The notes below the pieces were generated by a model that saw only the letters and a program-made list of their open reading frames with translations, did not search any database and had not been told where the DNA came from. From positions 1 to 64,000 of the forward strand of contig JADLEX010000098.1 in the NCBI GenBank assembly GCA_020845895.1: a DNA stretch of 64,000 bases. Reading direction: 5' to 3'. The stretch's first letter is position 1; the number at the start of each line of letters is the position of its first letter. This document shows, piece by piece, positions 1,075 to 62,302 of the stretch. The translations under genes and the position numbers were made by a program. The DNA comes from Deltaproteobacteria bacterium (GTDB taxonomy: Bacteria; Lernaellota; Lernaellaia; JACKCT01).

Positions 1075-1698
1075 ATGCGTGCGTGGCTGTATGCCGTGCT
1101 GATTTTGGCGATTGCTTCCCTGACGGTCGCGGGTTTCGTGGCCTGCGGCGGCGATGACGACGACGACGAGGAAGAGACCGGCGACGACGACGGCGGGGAC
1201 GACGACGACGCGTCCGACGACGATGACGACGATCTGGCGGACGACGATCTCGCGGATGACGACGCCGACGACGACCTCGACGACGACGCGGCGGACGACG
1301 ACACGTCCGAAGGCTGCGATCCGGTCGGCGACGAAGCGGTGACCATCTGCGACCCGGTCTACACCGAGGAGACGGAATTTCTGCAGGCCGTCAACGGTTG
1401 GCCCGTTTCGGTGAACGTGAATTACGAGGGCGAGATCCCGGCGGACACCGACCTGTGGCTCGACTGCCGCCCGCAGGAGCAGTGGCCGAATTCGCTGCCC
1501 CTGGACTCGCTGGCCGGAGACGATATCGGCATCATTCCGTGGAGTCTCGCGCTCGCCTATCACCAGATCCCGCCGGGCTTCACCGGTCAGGCCGACGTCA
1601 ATGCGAGTTGCGACCTCGTGATCGTCGACGCGAGCGATCTGCCGGTCTCGAACACGCTCGTCCTGACGATTCTGGTCAAGGCGGGCGGACCGGTCTGA
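1075..1698 (+). CDS. Asp-rich lipoprotein, unknown C-terminal domain
   Basis: A 207-residue protein. The signal peptide ends in a lipobox FVAC with Cys24, followed by about 55 residues that are almost entirely Asp with Gly, Ala, Leu and Thr. The remaining 120 residues form an unrecognised domain rich in beta-prone segments with three Cys residues (CDPVG, ICDP, LDCRP). The start is fixed by a strong AAGGAGG at 1060-1066; the frame is open upstream to 664, but that extension has no gene-like composition. It should be exported and lipid-anchored, with the Asp tract as a flexible acidic spacer (inference). It is one of twelve Asp-rich proteins in the window. It converges on the glycosyltransferase gene across a strong hairpin. 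Confidence 0.8.
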   Translation: MRAWLYAVLILAIASLTVAGFVACGGDDDDDEEETGDDDGGDDDDASDDDDDDLADDDLADDDADDDLDDDAADDDTSEGCDPVGDEAVTICDPVYTEETEFLQAVNGWPVSVNVNYEGEIPADTDLWLDCRPQEQWPNSLPLDSLAGDDIGIIPWSLALAYHQIPPGFTGQADVNASCDLVIVDASDLPVSNTLVLTILVKAGGPV

Positions 1699-1719
1699 TT
1701 GGAAATCCCTGGACAACAC

Positions 1720-1745
1720 GGCGGCCCGGTTCGCGCCGGGCCGCC
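1720..1745. terminator. bidirectional terminator hairpin
   Basis: A perfect 10-bp stem, GGCGGCCCGG paired with CCGGGCCGCC, with a 6-nt loop. It sits between two convergent genes ending at 1698 and 1748. A T-rich tail is short (CATTT on the plus strand). Confidence 0.7.
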
Positions 1746-1747
1746 GG

Positions 1748-3484
1748 TCATTTGGGCGACGGATTCTTCGGTTTGGGATTTTTTGCGGGATCGTCCTCGC
1801 CCATCAGCTCTTTGCGGCTGGGGCGGTCTATGTACTTGAACACCGGCGGCGCAAAGTGCGTCGCGACGATGTCATCGGGCAGCGGCGCGAACGCGCGCCA
1901 CGCATCGAGCCCGACGAGATCGCGGCGCAGCAGCCCAAACACGGTCTGCCCGGCCGCGTCGAAACGCACCGGAACATAAAGCCGCAGCGTGTCGTCGGCG
2001 ATGTAGAGGTCGCGCTGCGCCCATGCGACGGTGTGCGCGAACTGCCACTCACGCGGCTTGGGGCCGTCGCCCTCGTAGCGCTCGGGCCACGTCAGGATCA
2101 CGTCGGGCGCGCGGTCGAGCACGTATCGCGTGTCGAATTTTTCGTGGCCCTGCCGCCGCTGGCCGGTCGCGATTTCCTTGCGCCCGATGTGCAGATCGAC
2201 GAGACCCACCATGTCGAGGACGCGCCGGTGGGCGTAGTAGCCGAGCGCGCCGATGGGCAGCGTGGCGATGGTCGAACCCTCGGGCGTCGTTTGCGCGAGT
2301 GTCCGCCCGACCATGCCCCAGTCACGCGTCCATTTCACGAGCCGGTCGGCTTTGTACACGTCCAGAAACAGCGACACGCCGGACCACATCCACCATGCGA
2401 GAAACAGCCCCGCGGCGACGCGCAGGTTGGGCGCGCGTTCGGGCTCGCGGCCCTTGGCGATCGCGCGCGCGTCCCACCATGGACGCACGACGCGCCACGC
2501 CGCCAGCGCCGCCGGAGCGATGACCGGCACAAAGAAGCGGTGGAATGGGAAGAAGTCGCCGCCGACGGCGATGACGTAGGCCGTCTGCACGAGGGTCATG
2601 CCCATCGCCGCCCACCACCAGCGCGGCAGGGCGAGGCGATCGGCGTGCGGCATTTTCAGCCAGCGCCACGCGCACGCGGCGGGGAAGACGAGCGAGATCA
2701 CGGCCGAGAGCCAGTATTGCACGCCCTTCTTCGCGAGTTCGAAGCTCGTCGATCCCACCTTGGCCGCAAAAGTGTTGGGCATGAAGTAACCGAAGTATCG
2801 CCAGCGCCATAGCCAATACGCGCCGAACACTCCTATCACGATCGCCGCGAAGAGGGCCGCGCGGGCGAGACGGTCGCGGCGCGCCGGCCACGGCAGAATC
2901 CATGACAAAAAGAGCGGCACCGCGAGCAAAATCGCGTCGGGCCGCATGAGCCCCGCGCCCACGGTGATGAGCGCGCTGGCGATCGGCAAATTTCCCCGCT
3001 CGATCTCCCGCAGGTGCAGCGCCAGCCCCGCGGCGTAGAGCAGCGCGACGATCGGCGTCTCCATCGCCGACGACGACCAGACGAGGCTGGCGGGCGTGAG
3101 AAGCACGAACAGCGCGCCGGCGACATCGACCGACGCGGCGCGTCCGCCGAACGATGTGTCCCGCTCGCGTCGATAGATATGGAGAAGAATGGCGAACACC
3201 CCCGCCCACGCCGCGAGGCCGAGCGGCACGGCGACGAGATCGAGACGGCGCACGCCGAGGAGCGCGAAGACGGAGAGCAGGACCATCTGGCCGAAGGCGG
3301 TGCAACCCTCGACAACCTCGCCGGGATTGAAGACGATGCCTGCGCCCGCCGCGAGGTTGCGGCTGTACGTCATGGTGATGTACGCGTCGTCGACCGGGCC
3401 CGTGATCGGCAACGCGATCCACGCGACGACGAGCACCGCGAATGCGGCGATGAAGATGCGCGCTGATTCGGAAGTTCTCGTCAC
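1748..3484 (-). CDS. GT-C superfamily membrane glycosyltransferase (AftB/mannosyltransferase-like)
   Basis: About 578 residues with roughly nine to ten predicted membrane helices followed by a soluble C-terminal domain from about residue 400. The N-terminal luminal loop has PVDDAYITMTYSRNLAAG and then FNPGEVVEG, the acidic signature typical of polyprenyl-phosphate-sugar-dependent GT-C enzymes. These enzymes transfer a sugar from a lipid carrier to an envelope glycan or protein on the periplasmic face; donor and acceptor cannot be read here. The start is placed at the GTG opening VTRTSESARIF, because longer versions run into the divergent capA-like gene and are Arg/Pro-rich. No strong Shine-Dalgarno is seen. 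The C-terminal tail is Lys/Pro-rich. Confidence 0.75.
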   Translation of the reverse strand: MTRTSESARIFIAAFAVLVVAWIALPITGPVDDAYITMTYSRNLAAGAGIVFNPGEVVEGCTAFGQMVLLSVFALLGVRRLDLVAVPLGLAAWAGVFAILLHIYRRERDTSFGGRAASVDVAGALFVLLTPASLVWSSSAMETPIVALLYAAGLALHLREIERGNLPIASALITVGAGLMRPDAILLAVPLFLSWILPWPARRDRLARAALFAAIVIGVFGAYWLWRWRYFGYFMPNTFAAKVGSTSFELAKKGVQYWLSAVISLVFPAACAWRWLKMPHADRLALPRWWWAAMGMTLVQTAYVIAVGGDFFPFHRFFVPVIAPAALAAWRVVRPWWDARAIAKGREPERAPNLRVAAGLFLAWWMWSGVSLFLDVYKADRLVKWTRDWGMVGRTLAQTTPEGSTIATLPIGALGYYAHRRVLDMVGLVDLHIGRKEIATGQRRQGHEKFDTRYVLDRAPDVILTWPERYEGDGPKPREWQFAHTVAWAQRDLYIADDTLRLYVPVRFDAAGQTVFGLLRRDLVGLDAWRAFAPLPDDIVATHFAPPVFKYIDRPSRKELMGEDDPAKNPKPKNPSPK

Positions 3485-3593
3485 GGGGCGGTGAATCCGT
3501 TCAGGGTCGAAACGGCGGCGAATATACCGTCTCGCATGCCGGGACGTCCATGCCGCGCCCGGGTTCCGGTCCGGCGGCGAATCGGAGAGTTCG

Positions 3594-6774: not shown

Positions 6775-6837
6775 GCCGCAAGTCTAGAAGCGGCGCGCGC
6801 CAAGATCAATGCGTGGCCACCAGGGTCGGCCGGCTGC

Positions 6838-9229: not shown

Positions 9230-9619
9230 GTGTTTCGCTCCCCGCTCAAACATTCGCTTCACCCGCTCGCAGCCGCATTCGTCGTGGCCGCGGCGGTGTT
9301 CGCGTTTTCCGCCTGTTCCGACGACGACAAGGCGGACGACGGCCCGCCGTGGTTCGACTGCGAGCCGATGCTCGCCAAGCTCGACGAATGCGGCGTCGTG
9401 ATCGCGTTCGACGACCTCACCGAGGCCGACCCGGAAGAGGCATACGAATCCTGCCAGTTCGCCAAGGGCAACATGTGGCTTGCCGCATACAAGTGCTACA
9501 AGGAAAAGCCCGCCTGCGACGATTTCGCCGAGTGCCTGCCCGAACACGGATTCATCACGCCCGCGGAAATCGGCGACGACGACGCGGATGACGATGCGGC
9601 GGACGACGACACGGCCTGA
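9230..9619 (+). CDS. small Cys-containing lipoprotein with Asp-rich C-terminal tail
   Basis: About 129 residues. A long hydrophobic signal sequence ends at VFAFSAC, followed by a compact helical domain with six Cys (FDCEP, DECGV, ESCQF, YKCYK, PACDD, AECLP) that probably form disulfides. The protein ends in a 15-residue Asp tract (GDDDADDDAADDDTA), so here the tract is at the C-terminus. The start is uncertain: GTG at 9230 and GTG at 9215 are in frame with no clear ribosome site. TTGACA at 9195 with ACAAAT at 9218 could be a promoter, which would favour 9230 and a nearly leaderless message. Function unknown. Confidence 0.65.
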   Translation: MFRSPLKHSLHPLAAAFVVAAAVFAFSACSDDDKADDGPPWFDCEPMLAKLDECGVVIAFDDLTEADPEEAYESCQFAKGNMWLAAYKCYKEKPACDDFAECLPEHGFITPAEIGDDDADDDAADDDTA

Positions 9620-12712: not shown

Positions 12713-14818
12713 ATGCGTTCGACGTTCGGCATCATCACGACGCTTTTGATGGCGCTGGTGTCCTTTTCGGCTTCGGCTGAGCCGCTCGCGATTCACGCCG
12801 CTCCCACGGCGAACGGGCTTCGACTCGTCGTCGACATCCCCGAAGTGATCGTGGGAACGACGGTCATCGACGGCGAGACGTGGGACACGCTCGCGATGGA
12901 CGGCGCGGGACGGATGACCGAGCTCGGCCGGCCGGCGTTGCCTCTCATTCACCGTCTGATCGCGCTGCCGCCCGGGGTCGCAGGCGCCGACGTTCGCGTG
13001 GTCGAAATCGACTCCGGCATTCGTGGAAACCTCAAGGTCGGGCCGTGGCAACGACCCCTCGACCGCAACGGCGGAAGCGCCTCGGCCTTCGCGTTCGACT
13101 CCGACATGTACGAAACCGACGCCTCGTGGCCGGCATCGCCGATCCGCGTCGGCGCGGTTGCCTCGATCGGCGGTGCGCGGGTACTTCCCGTGACGATCCA
13201 TCCCGTTCGTTGGCGAGGCTCCGCCAATGAGATCGAAATCGCCTCTCGCCTCGTCCTCGACATCGCATGGACGCACTCGCATTCGGGCGCGCCCCCATCG
13301 CGCGTTTCTCGGGCGATCGACGGCATTTTGCGCCGCGTCGCGATCGTTCCGAGTCCGATCTCGGAGGGCGAGGACGCATGGTTGCCCGCGGACGGGACGT
13401 ACCTGATCGTCTGCGAGGACAGCCTGTGCGAGGCGGCCGCGCCGCTGGCCGAATGGAAGGCGCGCAAGGGATTCGCGGTCGAGGTCGTGCCGGTCTCCGA
13501 TATCGACGAATCGCCGACCGCGGCGCAGATCAAGGCATTTCTCGCCGATCGCTACGCGAACGACGAACCCGGGCTGGATTACGTGCTGCTCGTGGGCGAC
13601 GTTGATCAGATTCCGACTTTTCTCGGAATCTGGGGCACTCTCGCCGACCACGATTACACAACGGTGGACGGGGACGACTATTTCGCCGACTTCATCATTG
13701 GACGGCTTTCCGGGCAAACGCCGGAAGAGATCGCGGTGCAGGTGACGAAGACGCTTAGCTACGAGCGAGCGCCGGTCGTGACCAACGACGTCTGGTTCAC
13801 CTCGGCGCTGACGATCTCGGGATCGGACTACTTTGACGACGAAAACGCGGGTTACTGCGCCGACCAGGCCGAGAGCTACGGTTTCCCGGTGGCCGACCGC
13901 TACTTTCAGTCCAACGGCCAGAATACGAACGACAACGTGACGGCCTCGCTCGAGGCGGGACGGAGCTGGATCAGCTACTTCGGCCACGGATGGGAAGAGG
14001 CGTGGTCGAGCGTGAGTCCGCAGTTTTCGAACAGCGACGCGACGGGGTTGGAGAACACGGGGATGCCGCCCGCGATTTCTTCGATCGCGTGCTCCAACGG
14101 CGCGTTCGACTGGGGAGGCGACTGCTTCGCCGAGGCGCTCATGAAGGCCGGCGAGGACAAGGGCGCGGCCGCGGTCTTCGCGGCGGCGCGGCTGACGCCG
14201 TTCTTCTACACGGACAGCCTGGGCAAGGCGATGGCGCGCGGTTACTTCTCCGAGGGCATGGACAGCTTCGGCGCGGCGGCGTTTTACGGAAAAATGGGCA
14301 TGTACGAAGAGTACCCGGAGGCCGCGGGCGGACAGACCGAAGAGGTCATGCAGCACTTCCACATCTTCGGCGATCCCGACTTGCCGGTGTGGAGCGCCGT
14401 TCCGAGCGCGTTCGATGAGCCGGTCGCCGCGTGGGACGACGCCGCGAAAATCCTCACGGTCACCATCACGCAGGGGCGCGGCGGCTTCGAGGGCGCGCTG
14501 GTGCACGTGTTCGGCGAGGGCGCGGACTTCGTCGCGCGCACCGACGCGGAGGGAACCGTCGTTTTCCCGTATGAGACGATGCCCGCCGAGCCGTGGGAGA
14601 TTGTGGTCACCGCGCGAAACCGTGTCCCCTTCGAGGGCTTCATCGAGCCGCTCACCGAACCGGGCGACGACGATACCACCGGGGATGACGACACCAGCGG
14701 CGACGACGATACGCAGCCGGACGACGACGCGGCCGACGACGATACGCAGTCGGACGACGCCGCCGGCGGGGATTCCGACGGTGCGTCGCGCGACAACGAG
14801 GGCGCCTGCGGGTGCTGA
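12713..14818 (+). CDS. gingipain-like C25 cysteine protease with Asp-rich tail
   Basis: About 701 residues with a clean signal peptide (MRSTFGIITTLLMALVSFSASA), a beta-rich propeptide-like region (to about 220) and a peptidase C25 domain. The catalytic pair is seen as ISYFGHGWEEAW (His near 424) and SSIACSNGAFDW (Cys near 460). A C-terminal Ig/carboxypeptidase-regulatory-like beta domain follows. The last 55 residues are an Asp-Thr-rich tract ending NEGACGC at the stop. C25 enzymes are secreted by the T9SS or T2SS and need C-terminal sorting signals; neither a T9SS CTD nor a MYXO-CTERM helix is visible, so the acidic Cys-ended tail may take that role (inference). ATG 12713 is preferred over 12680 because GGGGAG precedes it. 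Confidence 0.8.
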   Translation: MRSTFGIITTLLMALVSFSASAEPLAIHAAPTANGLRLVVDIPEVIVGTTVIDGETWDTLAMDGAGRMTELGRPALPLIHRLIALPPGVAGADVRVVEIDSGIRGNLKVGPWQRPLDRNGGSASAFAFDSDMYETDASWPASPIRVGAVASIGGARVLPVTIHPVRWRGSANEIEIASRLVLDIAWTHSHSGAPPSRVSRAIDGILRRVAIVPSPISEGEDAWLPADGTYLIVCEDSLCEAAAPLAEWKARKGFAVEVVPVSDIDESPTAAQIKAFLADRYANDEPGLDYVLLVGDVDQIPTFLGIWGTLADHDYTTVDGDDYFADFIIGRLSGQTPEEIAVQVTKTLSYERAPVVTNDVWFTSALTISGSDYFDDENAGYCADQAESYGFPVADRYFQSNGQNTNDNVTASLEAGRSWISYFGHGWEEAWSSVSPQFSNSDATGLENTGMPPAISSIACSNGAFDWGGDCFAEALMKAGEDKGAAAVFAAARLTPFFYTDSLGKAMARGYFSEGMDSFGAAAFYGKMGMYEEYPEAAGGQTEEVMQHFHIFGDPDLPVWSAVPSAFDEPVAAWDDAAKILTVTITQGRGGFEGALVHVFGEGADFVARTDAEGTVVFPYETMPAEPWEIVVTARNRVPFEGFIEPLTEPGDDDTTGDDDTSGDDDTQPDDDAADDDTQSDDAAGGDSDGASRDNEGACGC

Positions 14819-21487: not shown

Positions 21488-21593
21488 CAACGCACCTGTC
21501 ATCGTGATGGCACCCGCATAACAGAGTCGCCCCGGATTGAAAAGCCGAAGTCGGACGACGGGTCTCGATCCGCTCCCGAATCTACCGACGTCC

Positions 21594-21623
21594 TTGACCC
21601 GCCTCGCGCACGGTTGATACGGT
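21594..21623 (+). promoter_or_regulatory. promoter of the lipoprotein at 21653
   Basis: TTGACC at 21594, an 18-bp spacer and TACGGT at 21618, 30 bp before the start codon. The same -10 and spacing occur upstream of the pseudo-receiver gene at 47550. Confidence 0.45.
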
Positions 21624-21652
21624 AGCGTCGTCCACCGGAACACGGAGCCGAA

Positions 21653-22156
<504 letters not shown>

Positions 22157-23492: not shown

Positions 23493-25514
23493 TCAGGGCG
23501 CGACGAACTCGTCCGCGCCGATATCCCACGCCGCGCCGCCGGGGCGCGCGTCGCCGTCCACATCCCACAGCGCGAATTCGGCCAGATCGGTGGGAAGGAA
23601 CGGCAGGGGATTGGTGCCCGCGTCGATCATCGCCGCACCGTCCGCGAGATGGAAGTCCAGGTCGCCCGGGTCGGCGAAGTCGGGCGCGTCGTCGATGTTG
23701 CCCCCAGCCGAGAGGCAATGGTCGATCTCGCAGTCGTTGATGTCGTCGATGTCGTCCCAGCAATCGACCGCGTCCTCGACGTAGCACCCGCCGCCGTCGG
23801 CGTAGAACGCGTTGTTGTGGAAAACGGACATGTCGAGCATCGGCACACCCGGTTGATAGACCACGGACTCGATCGCCGCTCCGCTTCCGATTCCGAGGAT
23901 GTTGTTGACGATGTTCCGCGGGGTGCTCTCCAGGCCCGCCCAGGGCGCGAAGATCGCCGCGGTGACGTTGCCGTCGTAAGCCAGAATCGTATTGCCCACG
24001 ACCGTGATCGGGCGCGCCGGAGCGTAGAACCCAAAGGATTCGCTGCTCGCGCTTCCCGCCTGGATGATCGAGTTGACCACGCGGACCGCCTTGAACGGAG
24101 ATCCCGGAGCATACACCCCCCACGTGGTGCCGGCCGGCGTGTCGCCGGAGAACGCCTGAACGCCGATGAGCGTCAGATCTCCGTCGGACGAGAAGATCGC
24201 CGCGGCCGAGGCGGCCGTCGAGCCGCCCACATCCACGAGGCTGTCCGTCATCCAGACCGGGGACATCGAGACGAAGATACCGAATCGGGATCCCGTTCCC
24301 TCCGAGATCGTCATCGCCAAGTCGGCGGCACGCACGGGCAAGCCCGTCGCGTAAATTCCGTAAACCGTTCCATCGGCCTCGACGTCGATGTCGACGTCTG
24401 ACAGATCCAATTGACACGTTCCCCCGAACACGCCTGATGCCGTGGACGTGGTGTCGCCGACCGAGATGGACAGACGACGTGCGACGAGGGCCCCGGTCGA
24501 GGCGTAAATACCATATCCGTCATCGCCCGCCGTGCCTTCGCCGACCACGATGAGGGAGTCCGCGATATCGAGCAGCGTCGCGCCGGTCGCGTAAATGCCG
24601 TAGCGGTCACCGACGTTGTCCGGAATGTCAATGTCCAAATGCCGCGCGACGATCGTCGCCGCGCCCATCGTCTGGATACCGATCGGGCCGCCCGTCGTGT
24701 TGCCGTTGATCGTGAGCCCGTCGAAAACGACGCTCGCATTCGCCTCGACCAGCAGGTTCGGCGACGCGCCCACCGCTTCGAGTTCGGTCGCGTTTCCGCC
24801 GATGTCGCGCGTCCAGTCCTCGTTATATCCACCGAAGAGCGACGCGGCGACCATCAGGTTTTCTTCGTACGATCCGCCCGTGATGTAGACGTTTGGGCGA
24901 TCGGTGTCGGTCTCGGCCTCGTCCGCGCCCTTCTGGATCGTCTCGAAGGGTTCGGCCATCGTCCCGGGATTCGCGTCGTTGCCGTTGTCGCCGTCCACGA
25001 AGTAGCCGTTGTCGTCACTCGCGGCGGCGTCGCCGCCCGCGCAGTCCTGATCGACCCCGTCATCAGGCAGATCGGTCGCGCCCGGATGCACGAGCGCGTC
25101 GGTATCGTCGCAGTCGTCCGAGGTCGAAAAGTATTCTCCCGGCGGAAGGCTCTCGCCCGCGCACACGTCCACGGCGGTTCCGGCATAGCCATCGCCGTCC
25201 GCATCCACGTATCCCGTCAGAATCTGCCACGCGTTCGCGTCGCCGTCGTTGCAGTCGGGGCCGGCCGCGCAGTTCTCTCCAAATGTATCGCCGTCCGTAT
25301 CGACGCACTCCGCCGCGTCGTCGTCGTCGTCATCGTCCGAGTCGTCGTCCGAGTCGTCGTCCGAGTCGTCGTCCGAGTCGTCGTCCGAGTCGTCGTCCGA
25401 GTCGTCATCTCCGCCGCCGGAGTCGTCGTCATCGTCGTCGTCGCCGCAAGAGCAGCCGGCAACAAGCGTAACAAGCAGCATCAACCAGATCGCCAAACAG
25501 GGGATTCCCTTCAT
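23493..25514 (-). CDS. Asp-rich lipoprotein with MopE-like repeats and beta-helix domain
   Basis: About 673 residues. The signal peptide ends in LVAGC (Cys21); an Asp/Ser tract of about 45 residues contains perfect SDDD repeats. Two MopE-type Cys/Asp segments follow ([45 protein letters not shown]), which in other bacteria bind metal or calcium. The main body is a right-handed parallel beta-helix ([15 protein letters not shown] start, many IYAT/IFAS rungs), closing with IDAGTNPLP and [10 protein letters not shown], the common end of PbH1 surface proteins. The start at 25514 has GGGAGGT upstream. It is probably a long, lipid-anchored surface protein; a ligand is not predictable. Confidence 0.85.
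25339..25398. repeat. 12-bp coding microsatellite (SDDD repeats)
   Basis: Five perfect tandem copies of GAGTCGTCGTCC (plus-strand sense) encode SDDD units on the minus strand inside the gene at 23493. Because the unit is 12 bp, slippage would change tract length without shifting frame. Confidence 0.9.
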
Positions 25515-37279: not shown

Positions 37280-39064
37280 ATGCCGACCAGAATTCTCGGA
37301 CTCGACATCGGAGCGGCCGGCGTCAAAGCCGCGCTGGTCGAGGCGCATTTTCGCAAGTTCGAGATCCAGCAATGCGTGACGCAGCGCGTGCCGACGCCGG
37401 AAGAGGTCGCGGGACGACCCGTGCCCGAATCCGTGGCGACGTTTCGCGCCAAGCGAGCTGCGGAAAATCCCCCACCGCCCACGGTCGAGGGTGCGGAGCC
37501 GTCGTCCGCCGTTGAAGAGCCGATCCCGCCCATCGTTTGGGCGCTCATCGATTTGCTGCGCCGCCCCGGCCTCGCGTACGACGAAATCGTCTGCGCCGTC
37601 GCCGGCGGATTCGTCGCGACACGAATCCTGAAGCTGCCGTTCTCGGGCCGCTCGAAGATCAATCAGGTCCTTCCCATGACGATCGAGGACGAGGTCCCCT
37701 TCGACATGGACGAGATGGTGCTCAGCCACGAAATCCTGCACACGGCCAAGGACGGCGCGACGGTGCTTGCCGCCATGGCGAAGCGCGACGACGTCGCCCG
37801 TCTGCTGGAATGGCTGGAGATGGCCGGCATCGAGCCCAAGGCGCTCACGATGACCGGATCGGCGCTCTCGGTGACGGCGGCCCACGTGCTCGCCGGCGTC
37901 GAGGGAGCCTCGGCGGTGGTGGACATCGGCGAACAGAGCACCGACGCCGTCATCATGAACGAAGGGCGCATCGCGCTGGTGCGTTCGATCCCCGAAGGCG
38001 GCGAGGAGGTCACGGCCAACCTCGCCAGGACGCTTGGCATCGAGGCCGCGGCGGCCGAACGGCTCAAGGTCGAGGCGGGTCGCGTTCTCGCGACCGACGA
38101 CGAATCCGGGGATGCGCGCGTGGTGAAACTCTCGCACGCACTCGTCGACGCGCATCAGCTTCTCCTCGGTCGTCTGCGTCAAACGATTCGCTCCAGCGAA
38201 ATGGCGGGGCAGTTCAAGATCCGAACGCTCTACCTGACGGGCGGCGCGAGCCGGTTGCCGGGTTTCGCCGAGCACCTGTCGCGCGAGCTCGGCGTGCCGG
38301 TCGAGCCTTTCCCGAGCCTGTCGCCCAAGCTGCCGAGCCTTGTCGAGGCCGACGACGAAAAGAACCGCGCCTTCGGCGTCGCGATCGGCGCCGCGGTGTG
38401 GACCGCGCCGTCGAACCGCGCGCGCGCGATCAACTTCCGTCAGGGTGCGTTTGCGTATCGCAAGGTCGCGCAGGCCGTGCAGGGCAGCCTCCGGGGCGCG
38501 GCGGTGATGGCGGGCATCGTCATCGCCCTGTTCATCGTGCTGGTTCTCCAGTCGCGTTCGGTGCAGGCGAAACGCATCGACGCGCTCGATCAGCAGGCGC
38601 GCAAGATCTACCTCGACACCTTCACGCAGCAACCGCCGCCGGGCAGCATCGTGCAGGCGTTCCGCACGCAGGCCGATCAGGTAATCCAGAAATACAAGAT
38701 CATCGGGCTGCTCGGCGAGGGAAACCTGCGGGCGCTCGACGTGATCCGCGCGATGTCCGAGGCACTCCCGAAAGAGGTCGAGATCGAGGTGGTGAAGCTC
38801 GATCTCAAGCCCGAGTTCGTGAAGATCGAGGCGGTCACGGACAAGTTCGAAACGGTCAACAAGATCGAGACGGAACTGGGCAAGAAGACGGACGTGTTCA
38901 AAGCGGTGAACCGCGACGAGGCCAAGAAGACCGCCGGCGACAAGATCAAGTTCAAGTTGACGATGCAGCTCGTGCAAAAGTCCAAGTCGGCCTCGGGCGT
39001 GACCACGCTGTTCGGCAGCGGACAGCCGGCCTCGACGCCGGTCATTCCGGGGTCCGAGCCATGA
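37280..39064 (+). CDS. gspL: type II secretion GspL-like (PilM-like ATPase fold plus periplasmic domain)
   Basis: A 594-residue protein. The N-terminal actin-like PilM/GspL domain starts ILGLDIGAAGVKAALVEA and includes AVVDIGEQSTDAVIMNEG and LYLTGGASRLPGFAEHL, the phosphate and adenosine loops. A membrane helix near 408-425 (AVMAGIVIALFIVLVL) leads to a coiled/ferredoxin-like periplasmic part. In type II secretion GspL links the cytoplasmic GspE ATPase to GspM. The intact ATP-site motifs make it closer to PilM than to enterobacterial GspL. The gspM-like gene follows after 20 bp. Other gsp genes (D, E, F, G) are not in the window. Confidence 0.8.
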   Translation: MPTRILGLDIGAAGVKAALVEAHFRKFEIQQCVTQRVPTPEEVAGRPVPESVATFRAKRAAENPPPPTVEGAEPSSAVEEPIPPIVWALIDLLRRPGLAYDEIVCAVAGGFVATRILKLPFSGRSKINQVLPMTIEDEVPFDMDEMVLSHEILHTAKDGATVLAAMAKRDDVARLLEWLEMAGIEPKALTMTGSALSVTAAHVLAGVEGASAVVDIGEQSTDAVIMNEGRIALVRSIPEGGEEVTANLARTLGIEAAAAERLKVEAGRVLATDDESGDARVVKLSHALVDAHQLLLGRLRQTIRSSEMAGQFKIRTLYLTGGASRLPGFAEHLSRELGVPVEPFPSLSPKLPSLVEADDEKNRAFGVAIGAAVWTAPSNRARAINFRQGAFAYRKVAQAVQGSLRGAAVMAGIVIALFIVLVLQSRSVQAKRIDALDQQARKIYLDTFTQQPPPGSIVQAFRTQADQVIQKYKIIGLLGEGNLRALDVIRAMSEALPKEVEIEVVKLDLKPEFVKIEAVTDKFETVNKIETELGKKTDVFKAVNRDEAKKTAGDKIKFKLTMQLVQKSKSASGVTTLFGSGQPASTPVIPGSEP

Positions 39065-39083
39065 CCGGAGCGGGACACAGTCG

Positions 39084-39671
39084 ATGACGCTCTCCGACCG
39101 CGACAAAAAACTGCTCGTCATCCTCGGCGCGTTTTTCGCCGTGGTGGCGGTCTATCTGCTCGCCGACTGGGCGATGGGCGGCGGCACGGTCGGCGGATCG
39201 GTATCGAACAAGGAACAGGAACTGCGCGACATCATCCAGGTCTATCGCACGTTCCAGAAGACGCAGGCCGACTTCCAGACCGCCGAGCGCGAGATCCAGA
39301 AGGCGGGGGATTTCGAACTGCTGACCGAGCTCGAAAACCTCGCGGTCAAGGCGAGCGTGAAGGACCACATCGAGTCGATGGACAAAAAGAGCCAGGCAAA
39401 AAATCCGTACTACGAGGAGGAAGCGGTCGAGGTGAAGATGCAGAAGATCAACATCATTCAGCTCATCACCTTCCTCTACGAACTCGAGTACGCAAACAAG
39501 GTCCTGCGCGTGCGCGAGATGCACCTCGAAACGCGTTTCGACAGCAAGGATCTCTTCAACGCTCGCGTGTTGGTGAGCACCTACCGCAAGATGAAGGGCG
39601 CGCCCGACGCCAAGCCCGCCGCGGGAGGCCCTGTCCCGGGCAAGCCGCCCGCTCCCACCGACGAAGAGTAG
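39084..39671 (+). CDS. gspM: type II secretion GspM/PilO-like protein
   Basis: A 195-residue bitopic protein: short cytoplasmic start, one helix (LLVILGAFFAVVAVYLLADW), then a coiled coil (about 45-80) and a small ferredoxin-like domain (VEVKMQKINIIQLITFLYELE, RVREMHLETRFDSKDLFNARVLVSTY), the usual GspM/PilO layout. The C-terminus is Pro/Ala-rich. It would pair with the preceding GspL-like protein in the inner-membrane platform. The gene pair alone indicates that the rest of the machine is encoded elsewhere. Confidence 0.75.
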   Translation: MTLSDRDKKLLVILGAFFAVVAVYLLADWAMGGGTVGGSVSNKEQELRDIIQVYRTFQKTQADFQTAEREIQKAGDFELLTELENLAVKASVKDHIESMDKKSQAKNPYYEEEAVEVKMQKINIIQLITFLYELEYANKVLRVREMHLETRFDSKDLFNARVLVSTYRKMKGAPDAKPAAGGPVPGKPPAPTDEE

Positions 39672-41535: not shown

Positions 41536-42060
41536 CTACACCGTCCCGCAGCCGCCGTAACACGTGTCCCACGCTTCGATGTAGCAGGCCTGCGTGCAGG
41601 GGTGGTTGCCCGGACCGCACCCGACGACGCACCCTTCGAGGTCTGACCGGCAGCTCTGCCAGCACGAAAAACTCACGTGACATTCGTCGAAGCACGGGTC
41701 CGCCGTCGCCGCGCAGCCTTCGACGCACGCCGCATCGCCCGCGCAGCCCGATTCGCACGCGAAGTAGTCGCCGAAGCAACCGCCCGCCGCTCCGGTGCAG
41801 GCCGCGAGCGCGGTTTCGCAGTCGATGATTTCGGATGGTGTGGTCGCCGCACCGAAACACGCGATCAGCGAGTCGACGCAGTCCTGTTCCGCGGCGCAGG
41901 TCGGCGGCGGCGCATCGTCATCGTCGTCGTCATCATCATCGTCGTCGCCCGCGTCGTCATCCATCGCTTCATCGTCATCATCGTCCCCGCCGCCGCACGC
42001 AACGGCGATCGCGAACGCTCCCAGCAACGCGATGATCGTCAGCATCCACAAAGCGCGCAT
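41536..42060 (-). CDS. Asp-rich, Cys-rich lipoprotein
   Basis: A 174-residue protein. The lipobox is IAVAC (Cys22), followed by GGG and a 25-residue Asp tract with an uninterrupted run of about eleven Asp. The rest is a Cys-rich domain with some 18 Cys in C-x3-C and C-x2/4-C spacings (CFGDYFACESGC, CVEGCAATADPC, CFDECHVSFSCWQSC, CYIEAWDTCYGGC), which fits a disulfide-stapled helical repeat. ATG 42060 is preferred over 42063 because GGAGGG is 4 bp from it. The upstream gene's stop TGA overlaps this start, suggesting translational coupling. Confidence 0.8.
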   Translation of the reverse strand: MRALWMLTIIALLGAFAIAVACGGGDDDDDEAMDDDAGDDDDDDDDDDDAPPPTCAAEQDCVDSLIACFGAATTPSEIIDCETALAACTGAAGGCFGDYFACESGCAGDAACVEGCAATADPCFDECHVSFSCWQSCRSDLEGCVVGCGPGNHPCTQACYIEAWDTCYGGCGTV

Positions 42061-42281
42061 CATTCCCTCCGGAACCGCTCGGCGGCGTCGATCGGGGCGC
42101 CCGCCGCTCGGCGGTAGAAAATCAGGAACGCCATGCTCGGGCGTTTGGATGCCTCGCGCATGGCGAAGTGCATCGTGTCGAAATCGAACCCCTCGGCCGC
42201 CATCTCGTTGATGATCTGCGTGAGCGATTCCTCGGTCACGTCCATCGTTTCGCGCACGCGGCAGTAAGGGTTGTCATTCAT
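42060..42281 (-). CDS. small hypothetical protein, translationally coupled to the Cys-rich lipoprotein
   Basis: A 73-residue protein with helix-rich N-terminus (DVTEESLTQIINEMAAEGFDFD) and a strand-like MAFLIFYRRA, the look of DUF4177-like small alpha/beta proteins. AGAGGA precedes the ATG. The TGA stop overlaps the next gene's ATG. Not exported. Function unknown. Confidence 0.6.
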   Translation of the reverse strand: MNDNPYCRVRETMDVTEESLTQIINEMAAEGFDFDTMHFAMREASKRPSMAFLIFYRRAAGAPIDAAERFRRE

Positions 42282-51137: not shown

Positions 51138-52292
51138 TCAGTCGGCGATCTTCACGATGATGAGCATCTGCTCGCCGTTGTCGGCGAGGTAGGCGAATTC
51201 GCCCATGACCCAGACGCCGTGCGGCGCGGAACCCATGTCGACTGTCGTGTCGATCGCGTCGCCGATGAGCGCGAGCGCCGCCGGGTCGGTCGCATCGACG
51301 AGTGCGAGACCGCCCCACGAGTTCGCTGTCGCCACGACCTGTGCGTACGCCGTGCCGTCGATCGTCAGCGGCCCCGCGAGGAAGCTGCCGTAGAATCCGT
51401 CGCTCGTCTGGAGCACCGACGACTCGACCATGTTCGCCGGATCGGCGATGTCCACGGTGATGAGGCCCGCGCCCCAGTCGCTGTAGTACAGCACGTTGCC
51501 GTCGATCTTCACGTCCTGGCCCCAGGGCTCGAAACCCGCGGTGCCGGGATTGAAGTACGTGTCGAGCACGGCGATTGCCTCGGGGTCGGCCACGTCGACC
51601 GAGATCAGCGTGCCCTCGCCGCCGCCGCAATACGCCACGTCGTTCGCATAGCCCAGGTTGTAGCAGGTCTCGCCGGTGGCAACCTGCGCCTCGCCGAGCG
51701 ATTCCGGCGTGCCCTTGGCTTCGCCGACGACCTCGATGTAGCCGTTGCTGCCCGCGCTGCCGCCGATATAGACCACGCCTTCGCCCAACGTCACCGCGTT
51801 GAGAATGCCGATGGTGGTCGGCACGAAGGTCCACTCCTCGGTCGGATTCAATGGATCGGAGACGTCGAGTTTGATGAGATCGTCGCGGTTCGCGAGATAG
51901 AGCGCCGTGCCGTCGAGAGCGAGGTTGTAGACCTGCCCCGCGGGCGGCTCGAACTCGGCGACCACCGTCGGCGACGCTACGTCGGACACATCCACCACCC
52001 CCATGCCGCTGTCCTTGCACGCCACGAAGCAATAGCTGCCGTCGCAGACGAGGTCCTCGCCGTAGTCGACGTCGACCCAACCCGTGATGTCGCCGAACGA
52101 CCATTCGTCGCCCGTGTCGTCATCCGCGGCATCGTCATCGGTCGCGTCGTCATCGGCCGCGTCGTCATCCTCGGTGTCGTCGTCGCCGGCCACATCGTCA
52201 TCGGCGGTATCGTCGTCGTCATCGCCGCACGCAAGCGTCCAAGCGCTCGCGACCACCCAGATCATCACCAATAGCCAGGAAACGTTACGCAT
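51138..52292 (-). CDS. Asp-rich lipoprotein with LVIVD-type beta-propeller
   Basis: A 384-residue protein: lipobox WTLAC (Cys22), an Asp/Thr/Ala tract to about residue 55, and then a propeller of LVIVD-like repeats with recurring VVDVSDVASPT, KLDVSDPLNPT, SVDVADPEAI, TVDIADPANM and LVDATDPAAL, about one per 45 residues. Such propellers are surface binding modules. GGGGG eight bases upstream selects ATG 52292. It is the last of three same-strand Asp-rich genes (53275, 52370, 51138) separated by 65 and 77 bp, probably one operon. Confidence 0.85.
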   Translation of the reverse strand: MRNVSWLLVMIWVVASAWTLACGDDDDDTADDDVAGDDDTEDDDAADDDATDDDAADDDTGDEWSFGDITGWVDVDYGEDLVCDGSYCFVACKDSGMGVVDVSDVASPTVVAEFEPPAGQVYNLALDGTALYLANRDDLIKLDVSDPLNPTEEWTFVPTTIGILNAVTLGEGVVYIGGSAGSNGYIEVVGEAKGTPESLGEAQVATGETCYNLGYANDVAYCGGGEGTLISVDVADPEAIAVLDTYFNPGTAGFEPWGQDVKIDGNVLYYSDWGAGLITVDIADPANMVESSVLQTSDGFYGSFLAGPLTIDGTAYAQVVATANSWGGLALVDATDPAALALIGDAIDTTVDMGSAPHGVWVMGEFAYLADNGEQMLIIVKIAD

Positions 52293-52369
52293 TCGCACAA
52301 CCCCCATCTGGAAATTTGGAACGGTTCATCTCCATCGCATCACGCACCGGACGCGGCGTGCCGCGTCGA

Positions 52370-53209
52370 TCAGAATTTCACCGGCACCAGCGGTCCCGTC
52401 AGATTGTCGTACTGGACGAGCCCGCCGAGATCGGCGAATTGCCAGTCGCTGAACACGATGTATCCCACGTCATGCGTGGCGAGGTCGTCCATCGGCAGAT
52501 CGGAGCAGTCGTTCGTGTCGCCGTCGATCTCGATGGAGTACGTCCACGCCGACTGATTGAGCAGGAACGTCACCTCGTACCACTGGTCGTGATCGTAGGT
52601 CGTCAGGCACTCCACGTACGCGTCGGTGTCCATGTTCCACGCGACCAGGTACGTGTCGTCGCCGCGCGCGTTGTCGATCTGGGCGATCGTCGACGCCACG
52701 GTCCCGCCCCAGAGTTCGACCTTGAACACCGCTCCCACTTCGCGCCAGACCTCGAATGTGATCTCAATGTCCTCGGTCTGCGTCCCGAACGGGTAGTAGG
52801 CGCGGCCGCTGTCGCCGTTCACGCCGCTTCCGTCGGCGGAGATCACGTTGCCCGAGCCGTCCTTGCTGATCGTGGACACCGCGAAAGTGGTCGCCCCGAT
52901 GACGCTGACGTCCCACGGGCTCGGCAACGCGCCGGTCGAATAGTCCTCGAAGTCCAGGTCGAACAGCGCGGCGGTGTCGTCGTCGCCCGTGTCGTCGTCC
53001 GCCGTGTCGTCGTCGGTCGCGTCGTCATCGACATCGTCGTCCGCCGTGTCGTCGTCGGTATCATCATCCGTGTCATCGTCGGCATCGTCGTCCGTAGCGT
53101 CGTCGTCCGCCGTGTCGTCGTCATCATCGTCGTCGCCGCAGTCGCAGGCGACTGTGAACGACATGACCGTAATCGCAAACAGGATCCATACCCAGGAAAA
53201 TCCTCGCAT
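52370..53209 (-). CDS. Asp-rich lipoprotein with LamG-like beta-sandwich
   Basis: A 279-residue protein: lipobox FTVAC (Cys22), an Asp tract of about 60 residues (TDDD, ADDD and VDDD units) and a C-terminal concanavalin/LamG-like domain starting FDLDFEDYSTGALPSPWDV. Shared positions with the protein at 61442 (FEDY/FESY, SPW, GATT, AYVECLTTYDHDQWYEV against WLECDTVSYDEWQRV, and the final short CSDLP/CDDVP) show that the two are paralogues. A carbohydrate- or protein-binding surface role is likely. ATG 53209 has GGAGG eight bases upstream. Confidence 0.8.
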   Translation of the reverse strand: MRGFSWVWILFAITVMSFTVACDCGDDDDDDDTADDDATDDDADDDTDDDTDDDTADDDVDDDATDDDTADDDTGDDDTAALFDLDFEDYSTGALPSPWDVSVIGATTFAVSTISKDGSGNVISADGSGVNGDSGRAYYPFGTQTEDIEITFEVWREVGAVFKVELWGGTVASTIAQIDNARGDDTYLVAWNMDTDAYVECLTTYDHDQWYEVTFLLNQSAWTYSIEIDGDTNDCSDLPMDDLATHDVGYIVFSDWQFADLGGLVQYDNLTGPLVPVKF

Positions 53210-53274: not shown

Positions 53275-54894
53275 TCACTCGGCCCAGTATCCATCCGGAT
53301 CGTATTTCCGCAGCCAAACGTTCGTTCCTTCTCCGCTCGCGTCAACCTCGCCGACCACGTAAATATTCCCGGCACTGTCCAGAGCCACGTCGTAGGCGAG
53401 TTCCTCGCTGTCGATGTCCTCGAGATCCGTCCAAATCTCGTCGCCGGTCTGGGCGTCATAGCGCCTGACCAAAATGTCATAACCGCCGGCGGTGGTGACC
53501 AGCCAGCCCACGCCGTACAGAGCGCCGTCCAGTCCAACGGCGATGGCTTTTCCACGATCCGCCGAGTCCGCCGAACCGGCTTCGGTGACCGTCCATTGTT
53601 CGTCACCATCCACATCGAGTTTCCGCGTCCAGATGTCCGCGTTCGAGACGCCGTTCATGGTCATTCCGGTCACGTAGACGTTGTTTTCCGCGTCCACCGC
53701 GATGCCGTGCGCCTCATCCTCCAGATTTTGATCATCGTTGTTGTAGATGTGGGTCCAGACTTTGGTCCCGTCCGGGTCGTACTTGCGAACCCAGGCGTTG
53801 GCTTCCTCGCCGGTCTCGGTGATCAGCCCGGCGGCGTAGACGTTGCCGTCCCCATCCACCGCGATGCTCAGGCCATTGTCGTACGAGTCCGCGGACCCGT
53901 TGACGGTCTCGAACCACTCCTCGTCCCCATCGGAATCGTATTTCCCGACCCAGATATTGCTGCTCTCGAATTCAACGTCGATGAATCCGGTTGCGTAGAT
54001 GTAGCCGTCGGCGTCGACCGTTACGTCCTTTGCGGCATTGTCGCCGCCGTTCCCGCCGTCGAAGGAGATTTCCCAGACGAAGTCCTCGAGCGCGTCGTAT
54101 CGCCTGAGCGACGCGAAATTATCGCCCGACGAATCCGTGATATCCCCCGCAACGACAAAACCGCCGTCATCCGTCGGCGCGATCGCCCACCCTGCGTCAT
54201 AGCCCTCGTAGCCGCCGTCATGGCCGTACGACCAGACGTTGTTCCCCGACGCATTCCAGAGCTGGTACAACATGTTCTGGGACTCGGTGTCGCTCATCGT
54301 AATCCCGGCGACGAGGGCGCCGTTGGCCGCATCAACCGCCAAGCCCAGACCGCGATCGATGTCGCCGGCATCGCTGTTCCAGGTGCGCGTCCAAAGATCG
54401 ACCGTGGTGAAGGCGAAGGTTTCGTCCGCCGCCATCGCGTCGCCGTCCTGCGCGAGCGCCCCGGCGCCCAGCGCGAAGTTGTATGTGGTTTCCTCGTCCA
54501 GCGCCTCATCCGGGGTGAAGGTCAGGATTTCGCCGGACGCGTCCCACGAGAACGAGCCCGCCACGCTGCCCGTGTCGAACAGGTCCTCGACCGACGCCGC
54601 GTCCATGGCCTCGCTGAACGTGACCGTGACGACCGTCAGGAGGCGCTGGTCCTTCGCGCCGTCGGGCGGCGAAATGTCGACGACCGTGGGTCCTCCGGTG
54701 GCATCGTCGTCGCTGTCGTCGTCCACGGCGTCGTCGTCGGCGGCGTCGTCATCGTCGTCGTCGTCCGACGCATCGTCGTCGCCTCCGCCCGAATCGTCGT
54801 CGTCATCGCCGCACGAGCACCCGCAGATCGAAGCGGCCCAAAGAATTCCGAAAAGAAGACACGTCCACGCATACGGCCCCGCCGCGCATTTCAT
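53275..54894 (-). CDS. Asp-rich lipoprotein with Big_5-like domain and SBBP-type propeller
   Basis: A 539-residue protein. Cys at 24 or 26 could be the lipidation site (AASIC/ICGC), followed by an Asp tract to about 65, an Ig-like Big_5 domain (VVDISPPDGAKDQRLLTVVT) to about 165 and repeated propeller blades with the SBBP pattern: DGYIYATGF, GNVYAAGL, NNVYVTGM, GALYGVGW, GNIYVVGE, each preceded by a WVGKYD-like strand. Predicted to be surface-exposed. AGGAGG is exactly placed for ATG 54894. First gene of the three-gene Asp-rich cluster. Confidence 0.85.
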   Translation of the reverse strand: MKCAAGPYAWTCLLFGILWAASICGCSCGDDDDDSGGGDDDASDDDDDDDAADDDAVDDDSDDDATGGPTVVDISPPDGAKDQRLLTVVTVTFSEAMDAASVEDLFDTGSVAGSFSWDASGEILTFTPDEALDEETTYNFALGAGALAQDGDAMAADETFAFTTVDLWTRTWNSDAGDIDRGLGLAVDAANGALVAGITMSDTESQNMLYQLWNASGNNVWSYGHDGGYEGYDAGWAIAPTDDGGFVVAGDITDSSGDNFASLRRYDALEDFVWEISFDGGNGGDNAAKDVTVDADGYIYATGFIDVEFESSNIWVGKYDSDGDEEWFETVNGSADSYDNGLSIAVDGDGNVYAAGLITETGEEANAWVRKYDPDGTKVWTHIYNNDDQNLEDEAHGIAVDAENNVYVTGMTMNGVSNADIWTRKLDVDGDEQWTVTEAGSADSADRGKAIAVGLDGALYGVGWLVTTAGGYDILVRRYDAQTGDEIWTDLEDIDSEELAYDVALDSAGNIYVVGEVDASGEGTNVWLRKYDPDGYWAE

Positions 54895-55125
54895 CGACAT
54901 CCTCCTGAAAAGACCGACTTGAGACTCACGACCCTCGGGCAGAAATTCATCATGTTGTGCCCGTTACGGTTTCTATTAGCGAAAATGGCGTGAATTAGCC
55001 AGAAATTTCTTCATTTCGACGAAACGTTCGGCATCTCGCCGTCGAAGACGCGCGATCCTGACGGGGCCCATTTCCTTCAACGCGTGAAAGGTCTACGGTT
55101 GGCGTTTCCGATCCAAGAGGGGACC

Positions 55126-58993: not shown

Positions 58994-59088
58994 GTTATTT
59001 CTTGTTCGCGCCTTTCCACGGCTACCGTACGTCCCAACAGGGCGGAATTGTGACGGTCAAGGCCAATCCGAGGTTTTAGGGTAAGGGC

Positions 59089-59139: not shown

Positions 59140-59167
59140 ATTTGGTGTGGTGTGCGTCACGTTCGCG

Positions 59168-59196
59168 TTGCGCGATGCGGGCGCATGTGTTAACGA
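59168..59196 (+). promoter_or_regulatory. weak promoter candidate for the gene at 59221
   Basis: TTGCGC at 59168, a 17-bp spacer and TAACGA at 59191. Confidence 0.3.
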
Positions 59197-59220
59197 ATTG
59201 CGTTATCCAGAAATCGGGGC

Positions 59221-60516: not shown

Positions 60517-60546
60517 CCCGGCCGCCGCGCGGCCCGGGGGACGACC

Positions 60547-61371: not shown

Positions 61372-61376
61372 GCCGA

Positions 61377-61405
61377 TTGCCCCAACCGCTTCACATCGAT
61401 AAAAT
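61377..61405 (+). promoter_or_regulatory. promoter candidate of the gene at 61442
   Basis: TTGCCC at 61377, a 17-bp spacer and a near-consensus -10 TAAAAT at 61400. Confidence 0.45.
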
Positions 61406-61441
61406 GCTTCCATCTGAAACTTCGGACGAAAGAGGTGCCCC

Positions 61442-62302
61442 ATGCGCGCGGCATTGGTGTCGGTATTGTTCGCGGTGCTCGTGTTTGCTTCGGGACTGAC
61501 CGGTTGCGGCGGCGATGACGACGATTCCGGCGGCGGATCGGGCGGCGACGACGATACCGGCGACGACGATACGGGTGACGACGATGCCGGTGACGACGAC
61601 GTGTCGGACGATGACGCCGATGACGACACCGACGACGACACGGGCGACGACGACACCGGCACCACGACGACGACCGTGACGACGACGACCACCACCACGA
61701 CGATCCCCGATCTCTACTTCGACGACTTCGAGTCTTATGCGCCGGACGCGGCGCCGACGTCACCGTGGGTCATCCAGGTCAATGGCGCGACCACGATCAC
61801 CGTTGCGGACGAAATCGCCAAGGACGGCGAGGGGCAGTTCCTGAAGTACGTCGCGGGCGCGGATTCCGGCGACTTCGGAAATGCGTCCACCTACATCAAC
61901 ATCGCCGATGACGCGGTCTATTCGTTCGACGTCTACCGCCTCGCCGGGGCGTCGCTGGAAATGCGGATTTCATACCATGACGGGTTTTGGCTCGACGAAG
62001 TCATCGTGGGATTCGCCGGAGCGACCAACAAACTCCAGGCGTGGGATTCGTCCGTCCCGGGCTGGCTCGAGTGCGACACCGTGTCCTACGACGAGTGGCA
62101 GCGCGTCGAGGTCGTGTACTACTGGTACATGGGTAAGTTCGACGTCTATCTCGACGGCGTTCTGACTGCCTGCGACGACGTCCCATTGAACCACGACGAC
62201 GAACAGCCCCTGACCCTCGTCCAGTTCCTCGACTTCACGTCGGCGGGATACGGCGGCACCGCGTACCTCGACAACGTCGGTATCCAATCTTACGGAGACT
62301 GA
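61442..62302 (+). CDS. Asp-rich lipoprotein with poly-Thr linker and LamG-like domain
   Basis: A 286-residue protein: lipobox GLTGC (Cys22), an Asp tract of about 45 residues, a run of about 15 residues that are nearly all Thr, and a LamG-like beta-sandwich starting YFDDFESYAPDAAPTSPWV. The last domain is paralogous to that of 52370. The Thr run could be an O-glycosylation site (inference). AGAGG lies upstream of the ATG. It is followed by a hairpin at 62328. Confidence 0.8.
   Translation: MRAALVSVLFAVLVFASGLTGCGGDDDDSGGGSGGDDDTGDDDTGDDDAGDDDVSDDDADDDTDDDTGDDDTGTTTTTVTTTTTTTTIPDLYFDDFESYAPDAAPTSPWVIQVNGATTITVADEIAKDGEGQFLKYVAGADSGDFGNASTYINIADDAVYSFDVYRLAGASLEMRISYHDGFWLDEVIVGFAGATNKLQAWDSSVPGWLECDTVSYDEWQRVEVVYYWYMGKFDVYLDGVLTACDDVPLNHDDEQPLTLVQFLDFTSAGYGGTAYLDNVGIQSYGD

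Follow-up and report, generated by a model that had tools for sequence, protein, structure and literature searches.

The window analysed here, a whole stretch of 64,000 nucleotides, belongs to a 4.98 Mb genome of family FEN-1099 (Candidatus Lernaellota). It encodes a set of exported proteins with tracts of Asp triplets, (DDDX)n, together with two genes of a type II secretion system (T2SS; Table 1). Genes are cited below by their first coordinate. An earlier note on this DNA had counted twelve proteins with long poly-Asp. Ten proteins in the window indeed carry long (DDDX)n tracts, while 9230 and 57239 have short ones only; the translation of the latter contains merely CEDGDGGGDDSESDDDTADDE, which falls under the tract threshold of our analysis. 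Translations place the tract straight after the lipobox Cys, as had been claimed, at 1075, 23493, 41536, 51138, 52370, 53275 and 61442, but at 21653 and 36010 the onset lies 15-20 residues downstream, and the lipobox of 36010 is poor. Of the two C-terminal tails described earlier, that of 12713 is present, and its terminus, ...EGACGC-COOH, had been overlooked; that of 9230 is weak, being just 12 residues long (DDDADDDAADDD) and attached to a lipoprotein (CSDDDK...). The attached domains are mostly unrelated, except for those of 52370 and 61442, which are homologous and both match L020:18058.

Table 1. Exported proteins with Asp-rich stretches and T2SS genes in the window
Gene	Strand	Product	Tract or other feature	Pfam
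1075..1698	+	Lipoprotein, lipobox ...GFVA/CGGDDDDD (cleavage before C)	tract 1144-1302	
9230..9619	+	Small Cys-rich lipoprotein, FSA/CSDDDKADD	short C-terminal tail DDDADDDAADDDTA at 9575-9610; last residue not Cys	
12713..14818	+	Gingipain-like C25 peptidase, ordinary signal peptide	C-terminal tract 14666-14743; terminus ACGC-COOH (GACGC at 14801-14815, then stop)	PF01364 (E 3e-61), PF08126
21653..22156	+	Small lipoprotein, TTA/CFDADKEPP...	tract 21767-21907, onset 15 residues past Cys	
23493..25514	-	Lipoprotein	tract 25317-25454	
36010..36963	+	Exported protein, PANAA/CWTDGGDDD, poor lipobox	tract 36142-36342	
37280..39671	+	T2SS genes	GspL/PilM-like 37280-39064; GspM 39084-39671	
41536..42063	-	Small Cys-rich lipoprotein, AVA/CGGGDDDDD	tract 41914-41997	
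51138..52307	-	LVIVD-repeat lipoprotein, TLA/CGDDDDD	tract 52116-52229	PF08309 (E 2e-22)
52370..53209	-	Lipoprotein, domain homologous to that of 61442	tract 52976-53146	
53275..54900	-	Big_5 + beta-propeller lipoprotein	tract 54703-54819	PF13205, PF06739
57239..58918	-	Alpha/beta-hydrolase lipoprotein	weak acidic stretch CEDGDGGGDDSESDDDTADDE 58796-58858	PF00561 (E 6e-15)
61442..62302	+	Lipoprotein, LTG/CGGDDDD	tract 61505-61654, then Thr-rich linker	

A Pfam search with the lipoprotein 1075 gave zero matches. The GspL/PilM-like gene matches PilM_2 (2e-18), T2SSL (3e-6) and GspL_C (2e-3), and the GspM gene matches T2SSM weakly (2e-4). Two window lipoproteins have homologues with C-terminal tracts in relatives: 23493 resembles L167:760-2709 (243 aa, 37%), and the propeller of 53275 is homologous to that of L185:17206-19173.

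The tracts are a property of the whole genome and of its class, for which six further genomes were compared. The codon pattern for DDDxDDD occurs 971 times in the source genome (reversed-pattern control, 0) and 290-1,700 times in each of the six class relatives, against 0-16 times in 53 unrelated genomes, more than chance would produce. Statistics are based on 1.02 Mb of stretches. From 0.65 Mb picked regardless of tracts we estimate that a genome encodes about 175 proteins with an N-terminal tract and 85 with a C-terminal one (in total about 250-260), signal peptides being called by a home-made rule and not by SignalP. Among 826 sampled genes of the source genome, a tract is present in 60 of 125 lipoproteins and in 25 of the remaining 701 genes (Fisher p = 5e-36). 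Seven tract genes have no detected N-terminal signal; six of these encode C-tail/Cys proteins and one is cut by a contig end. No demonstrably cytosolic protein with a tract was found among the sampled genes. A candidate second case, Myxococcales FL481 (3,872 DDDxDDD matches), was rejected: it gave no C-tail signal (2 matches), and in the two stretches read its D-rich proteins look like DG/DDD linkers.

The tract nearly always adjoins a Cys that serves, or probably serves, as the anchor. Lipoproteins have this Cys at the N-terminus; where the signal peptide is an ordinary one, it lies at the C-terminus (GCGC-COOH). The earlier interpretation, which holds in part, had missed this organising rule, i.e. 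that the tract lies between a folded domain and a terminal Cys. In 85 lipoproteins the first DDD starts a median of 4 residues past the lipobox Cys. At the other end, 53 of 55 non-lipoprotein C-tails have a Cys within their last four residues and 38 have it as the final one; 19 end in GCGC and 11 in CCGC. By comparison, lipoproteins with a C-terminal tract have a Cys in the last four residues in only 1 of 6 cases, and one of 1,278 proteins that lack a tract has a strict CGC/CCG end. The NCBIfam matches listed for the 53 tails included no sorting-tag model. In 20 homologous pairs that cross the two classes, tract and Cys switch ends together; for example, L153:11068 (C-tail) and L155:898 (lipoprotein) of one genome match at 33% over ~430 aa. 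Such homologues, anchored at opposite ends within one genome, supply natural control pairs.

Residues +2 to +8 after the lipobox are G or D in 61% of positions in tract lipoproteins and in 23% in tract-less ones, and at least four of the seven are G, D or N in 76% and 9% of the proteins, respectively. Since Asp is what the tract is made of, this enrichment is in part circular; Gly, which does not depend on the tract, stands at 23% against 14%. Neither Lys nor Gln is common at these positions. Cargo differs as well. Tract lipoproteins include glycosidases, lipases, PI-PLC and propellers, and C-tail proteins include C25, S8 and trypsin-like proteases, kelch and PKD proteins, two of them matching M36 models whose names refer to dependence on myxosortase and rhombosortase. 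Tract-less lipoproteins (among others BamD/YfiO, CcmH-type TPR, HlyD, Peripla_BP_6 and beta-lactamase) look periplasmic.

GspD is present in all seven class genomes, full-length in six and split across two contigs in one; the full-length copy of the source genome lies outside the window (G000:C107, E 2e-170). Three Lgt clades (A, B and C) occur in 7/7 genomes, and three matches are reached in 2-3 of 91 other genomes.

We suggest, with modest confidence, that the tract is an acidic surface stalk combined with a sorting motif beside the anchor, and that its carriers are exported by T2SS and held by two types of anchor. Of the functions proposed earlier, acidic spacer and sorting signal are still the best readings. 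The stalk, up to about 100 residues of presumably disordered Asp triplets, would separate a folded extracellular domain from the Cys anchoring it in the outer membrane. In lipoproteins processed by signal peptidase II, the lipid would sit on the N-terminal Cys; Gly and Asp right after it would act as a motif for Lol avoidance or type II secretion, which the repeat extends to a stalk. Proteins with an ordinary signal peptide would instead carry the stalk at the C-terminus, ending in GCGC-COOH, a putative sorting tag equivalent to MYXO-CTERM minus its cleavable transmembrane helix and arginines and therefore in no need of a myxosortase. We infer surface exposure of tract proteins, use of T2SS and an anchoring role of the C-terminal Cys; that one of the two additional Lgt paralogues lipidates this Cys is a conjecture.

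Several observations count against this explanation. Surface lipoproteins of Acinetobacter and Klebsiella require GspN; a search for it (PF01203) gave 0 matches in the source genome and two sub-cut-off matches in relatives, though a divergent protein could be missed. The short motif CG-DDDDD is not special and is seen behind lipoboxes in many phyla, including Actinobacteria and Chloroflexi, where T2SS is not expected. CPBP proteins (PF02517) number 2-5 in each of the six relatives, as candidate myxosortases only. Finally, some tails deviate (GCCG, CGR, CGF, CSK).

The C-terminal CGC might be no lipid anchor at all, but a site of disulfides (intramolecular or with a partner) or a redox- or metal-active CXC, tying the tail to an envelope component. 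CGC and CCGC are classic disulfide and thiol motifs, the tails lack a transmembrane helix with which to reach a lipidating enzyme, and several accept residues beyond the final Cys. Against this, the co-movement with a lipid-anchored Cys at the opposite end argues for an equivalent role, and in relatives poly-Asp with GCGC precedes a full MYXO-CTERM helix, where lipidation of the Cys is presumed (PMC11980579). We consider this alternative unlikely. Lipidation is in turn mechanistically awkward, because a C-terminus without a transmembrane segment would not stay at the inner membrane, the site of Lgt action. Slightly less doubtful, yet still tentative, is a bolder version: the tails may define a second bacterial lipoprotein class, fully translocated periplasmic proteins whose free poly-Asp-GCGC-COOH would be lipidated directly by a dedicated Lgt of clade B or C, with neither helix nor protease. 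If true, this would mirror the standard lipobox and parallel, in the periplasm, the C-terminal CxC lipidation of eukaryotic Rab proteins.

N-terminal tracts could also be ordinary disordered linkers of outer-membrane lipoproteins, serving Lol release only and unrelated to surface export. Such linkers are known after the lipobox in E. coli, LolA is encoded in all seven genomes and short acidic post-lipobox motifs occur in many phyla; the C-terminal tails on non-lipoproteins are left unexplained, as is the different cargo of lipoproteins with and without a tract, which makes this reading rather improbable. We give still less weight to a mainly low-affinity device for Ca2+ or other metals, or for charge (hydration, repulsion from acidic surface polysaccharide), placed where disorder is tolerated. 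The strict DDD units and the choice of Asp nearly to the exclusion of Glu (2,032 Asp and 22 Glu in source-genome tracts) would suit it, but not the terminal GCGC, the short distance to Cys or the periplasmic look of tract-less lipoproteins; no particular support was found for the Ca2+ binding envisaged in the earlier note. As for functionless GAC/GAT microsatellite expansion, the DNA is repetitive and the genome G+C-rich, but codon, frame and run-length tests reject it: GAC makes up 72% of Asp codons inside tracts and 73% outside, neighbouring D codons are identical in 59% of cases (62% would be expected), 235 occurrences of the pattern fall in the Asp frame and 8 in all other frames together, and 331 of 419 Asp runs are exactly three long. 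Given also that the tracts are confined to exported proteins and kept across seven genomes, we regard such an origin as virtually impossible. With both refuters, the cytosolic background and the microsatellite, having failed, common selection on the tract of exported proteins is strongly supported.

Gram-negative C-terminal surface tags described so far have, to our knowledge, either a helix and a protease or a folded domain; a tag ending at GCGC would be their minimal version. Organisms with many such tags and three conserved Lgt clades bear on the question which enzyme lipidates the MYXO-CTERM Cys. The tracts also offer a sequence-only route to listing the probable surface proteome (~260 proteins) of an uncultured phylum.

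Known systems resemble the present one in part. Lipoproteins dependent on T2SS carry a Gly/Asp sorting motif after the lipobox (PMC12802150). Surface lipoproteins of this kind (PulA, InvL) share with ours the Gly/Asp-rich residues directly past the lipidated Cys and the presence of T2SS; here, however, the motif is drawn out to a (DDDX)n stalk on an estimated 175 proteins, and GspN is undetected in the source genome. The LES of Bacteroidetes likewise places acidic residues beside the lipidated Cys of surface lipoproteins, but our tract lipoproteins show neither K-(D/E)2 nor Q-A-(D/E)2 after Cys: the tract has Asp only and no Lys, is much longer, belongs to another phylum and has a C-terminal counterpart. 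GlyGly-CTERM, PEP-CTERM, LPXTG and T9SS CTD are also C-terminal signals common to many unrelated exported proteins, all of them, as far as we know, with a helix and basic tail or a folded domain.

The closest relation is to MYXO-CTERM (TIGR03901) and myxosortase of Myxococcota, where many Sec-exported proteins of unrelated kinds likewise bear a tag at the C-terminus, with a GCGC signature, an adjoining disordered region and T2SS. Its signature has been described as "a generic GCGC" with T2SS export, and its Cys is thought to be lipidated, the enzyme being an open question with Lgt as leading candidate (PMC11980579). Unlike it, the main form here stops at GCGC without transmembrane helix or Arg cluster, and the source genome has 0 matches both to TIGR03901 and to the CPBP family of myxosortases (PF02517), in favour of a tag that needs no such protease. 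Our tails end at, or at most three residues past, the last Cys, leaving no room for a helix. A helix hidden past GCGC by frameshift, sequencing error or readthrough was rejected, there being no excess of helix plus basic sequence downstream (by frame, readthrough and others, 2, 0 and 2 of 52 tails against 23, 27 and 55 of 1,273). Each relative, however, has 1-4 full MYXO-CTERM tags, a small minority, some of them behind poly-Asp (L281: DDDDDGCGC-SVTSGK...-TM-LRRSR). The GCGC-COOH tail, newly noticed here, looks like a shortened form of this myxobacterial tag.

All twelve Asp-tract proteins claimed in the earlier note exist and ten of them carry long tracts; the other two, at 9230 and 57239, have short acidic stretches only. 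The repeating unit consists of DDD and one or two residues drawn from A, T, S, G, P and V, and Glu, in the proteome almost as frequent as Asp, is nearly missing. In 1.02 Mb of the genome holding the window (own genome) and about 0.67 Mb from six relatives, with genes called by a simple G+C-frame method, tract proteins form two classes. Class N proteins (n = 85) have a lipobox and then the tract, at a median distance of 4 residues from the Cys, with C-x-C-G ahead of the Asp run in 21; in this class 331 of 419 Asp runs are exactly three residues long, while at random about 36% of the runs of at least three would have this length. Class C proteins (n = 55) lack a lipobox and have a C-terminal tract (C-tail), with Cys within the last four residues in 53 cases, the most frequent ends being GCGC (19), CCGC (11), GCCG (5), ACGC (3) and SCGC (3). 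Such a near-terminal Cys occurs in only one of six lipoproteins with a C-terminal tract, and a strict CGC/CCG end in only 1 of 1,278 tract-less proteins. Extrapolation from 0.65 Mb picked irrespective of tracts (23 class N and 11 class C proteins) gives about 175 and 85 per genome, respectively.

The tracts are neither chance nor microsatellite products. Their DDDxDDD codon pattern has 971 matches in the own genome against 0 for the reversed control. The GAC/GAT microsatellite expansion that the earlier note had kept as an alternative is ruled out by the synonymous codon mix, the same inside and outside tracts (GAC 72% versus 73% of other Asp codons), by the likeness of adjacent tract codons, which does not exceed expectation (59% identical, 62% expected), and by the frame bias, as the coding frame holds the pattern 235 times and all other frames together 8.

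The own genome is one of a small class and, as we infer from matching pattern counts, falls in FEN-1099 / Ca. Lernaellota, two names connected in PMC13248872. All seven class genomes (own and six relatives) have 290-1,700 DDDxDDD matches, versus 0-16 in 53 other genomes. The C-tail DNA pattern gives 13-178 matches per class genome, an over-count, and almost always 0-3 in 283 others; the highest count among these, 11, came from a 9.2-Mb genome where the control reaches 10. We regard the tract architecture and its conservation throughout the class as almost certain. In Myxococcales bacterium FL481 (G067; stretches L063, L186) the DDDxDDD pattern occurs 3,872 times and lipoboxes are followed by long GDGDGD repeats, but the C-terminal GCGC tail is missing; its acidic linkers are apparently an independent expansion.

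With tracts masked, BLAST yielded 20 homologous pairs linking class N and class C. For example, the protein at L153:11068 has an ordinary signal peptide, a C-terminal tract and a GCGC end, and L155:898 of the same genome is a lipoprotein with an N-terminal tract and no tail; their domains share 33% over about 430 residues. Window proteins 53275 and 23493 likewise have C-tail homologues in relatives. Because homologues bear the tract at opposite ends, what the tract accompanies is the anchor, not the domain; we consider this tie very probable.

Presumed sorting of class N can be compared with Acinetobacter T2SS-dependent lipoproteins, which require GGG or ND(N/D) just past the lipobox; Gly/Asp hybrid motifs exist in Burkholderia and Shewanella (PMC12802150). 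Tract lipoproteins begin CGGDDD, CGDDD or CxCGDDD, and G+D make up 61% of their residues +2 to +8, versus 23% in tract-less ones. GspD is full length in six class genomes and split between two contigs in the seventh; LolA is found in all. GspN was searched for in the own genome and not found, which is the main gap in the T2SS-sorting argument for N-terminal motifs. Short CGDDDDD after a lipobox is widespread among phyla (79 of 121 hits); within these hits, only the FEN-1099 genome showed the long (DDDX)n form. Cys-Gly-Asp5 right behind the lipobox (L029-L146) was seen in Chloroflexi, Actinobacteria, Bacteroidales and Clostridia; since these include monoderms, the short motif is general and not explained by T2SS. 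Tract lipoproteins match glycoside hydrolases 1, 31 and 114, PI-PLC, lipase/PETase, lactonase and other propellers; tract-less ones match BamD/YfiO, CcmH-type TPR, HlyD, Peripla_BP_6, penicillin amidase and beta-lactamase. Among C-tail proteins there are hits to kelch, PKD, trypsin, subtilase and C25, and two proteins hit M36 models whose names refer to myxosortase and rhombosortase dependence. By annotation only, the cargo split fits outside-facing versus periplasm-facing proteins.

Class genomes have three Lgt copies each, elsewhere usually one; three matches occur in 3 of 91 other genomes, one of them counting a split gene. In a tree, the copies (L239-L241, own genome; L242-L258, relatives) fall into three orthologous clades; clade B groups with C as its sister (support 100/97), both being older than the families of the class. 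Clade A adjoins lspA, and clade B an ispH-like gene in L241 and L243. With a few substitutions and one frameshifted gene as exceptions, all clades retain the residues that correspond to E. coli Tyr26, the H/Y103-GG motif, Arg143, Arg239 and Glu243, which are important in the E. coli enzyme.

Coordinates of features in the window and in stretches read outside it
Stretch	Position	Feature	Remark
Window	18353-21670	Eco57I-type restriction-modification methylase gene	
Window	37280-39671	GspL- and GspM-like genes	GspM call weak
Window	60547-61371	Tract-less lipoprotein	CGACAGDLAP
Window	62451-63317	Tract-less lipoprotein	CGGAPPKEPP, then poly-Pro run
L153	11068-19947	Four C-tail proteins inside 9 kb	Three are trypsin-like proteases
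L239 (own genome)	6739-7254, 7251-7805	Two tandem lspA-like genes	
L281 (relative G002)	1011-2375	Small Cys-rich paralogues in cluster	Full tag: poly-Asp, GCGC, helix, Arg
L283 (relative G005)	1423-2304	Small Cys-rich paralogues in cluster	Full tag: poly-Asp, GCGC, helix, Arg

MYXO-CTERM (TIGR03901), the myxobacterial C-terminal surface tag, joins a 'generic GCGC' signature to a helix and an Arg cluster; it is cleaved by a CPBP protease and exported by T2SS, and its Cys presumably receives a lipid, with Lgt as the leading candidate for the enzyme (PMC11980579). For our C-tails, lipidation of the terminal Cys by Lgt of clade B or C is a rather unlikely conjecture; lacking a helix, such a tail would need some other way to the membrane. 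The main form of our C-tail, unlike MYXO-CTERM, ends at GCGC, and for want of the helix and the Arg cluster it does not qualify as a member: helix-like sequence downstream of C-tails, sought in all frames, was nowhere above background, and neither TIGR03901 nor CPBP has a match in the own genome. Relatives contain 1-4 full MYXO-CTERM tags each, several preceded by the same poly-Asp ('...DDDDDGCGCSVTSGKASGFALPVGMLAIGILAFGLGLRRSR' in L281; 'DDDDDDDDGCGCVIGGG...SLRKKR' in L283), and this connects the two forms. We somewhat favor the view that the C-tail is a TM-less, MYXO-CTERM-like surface tag.
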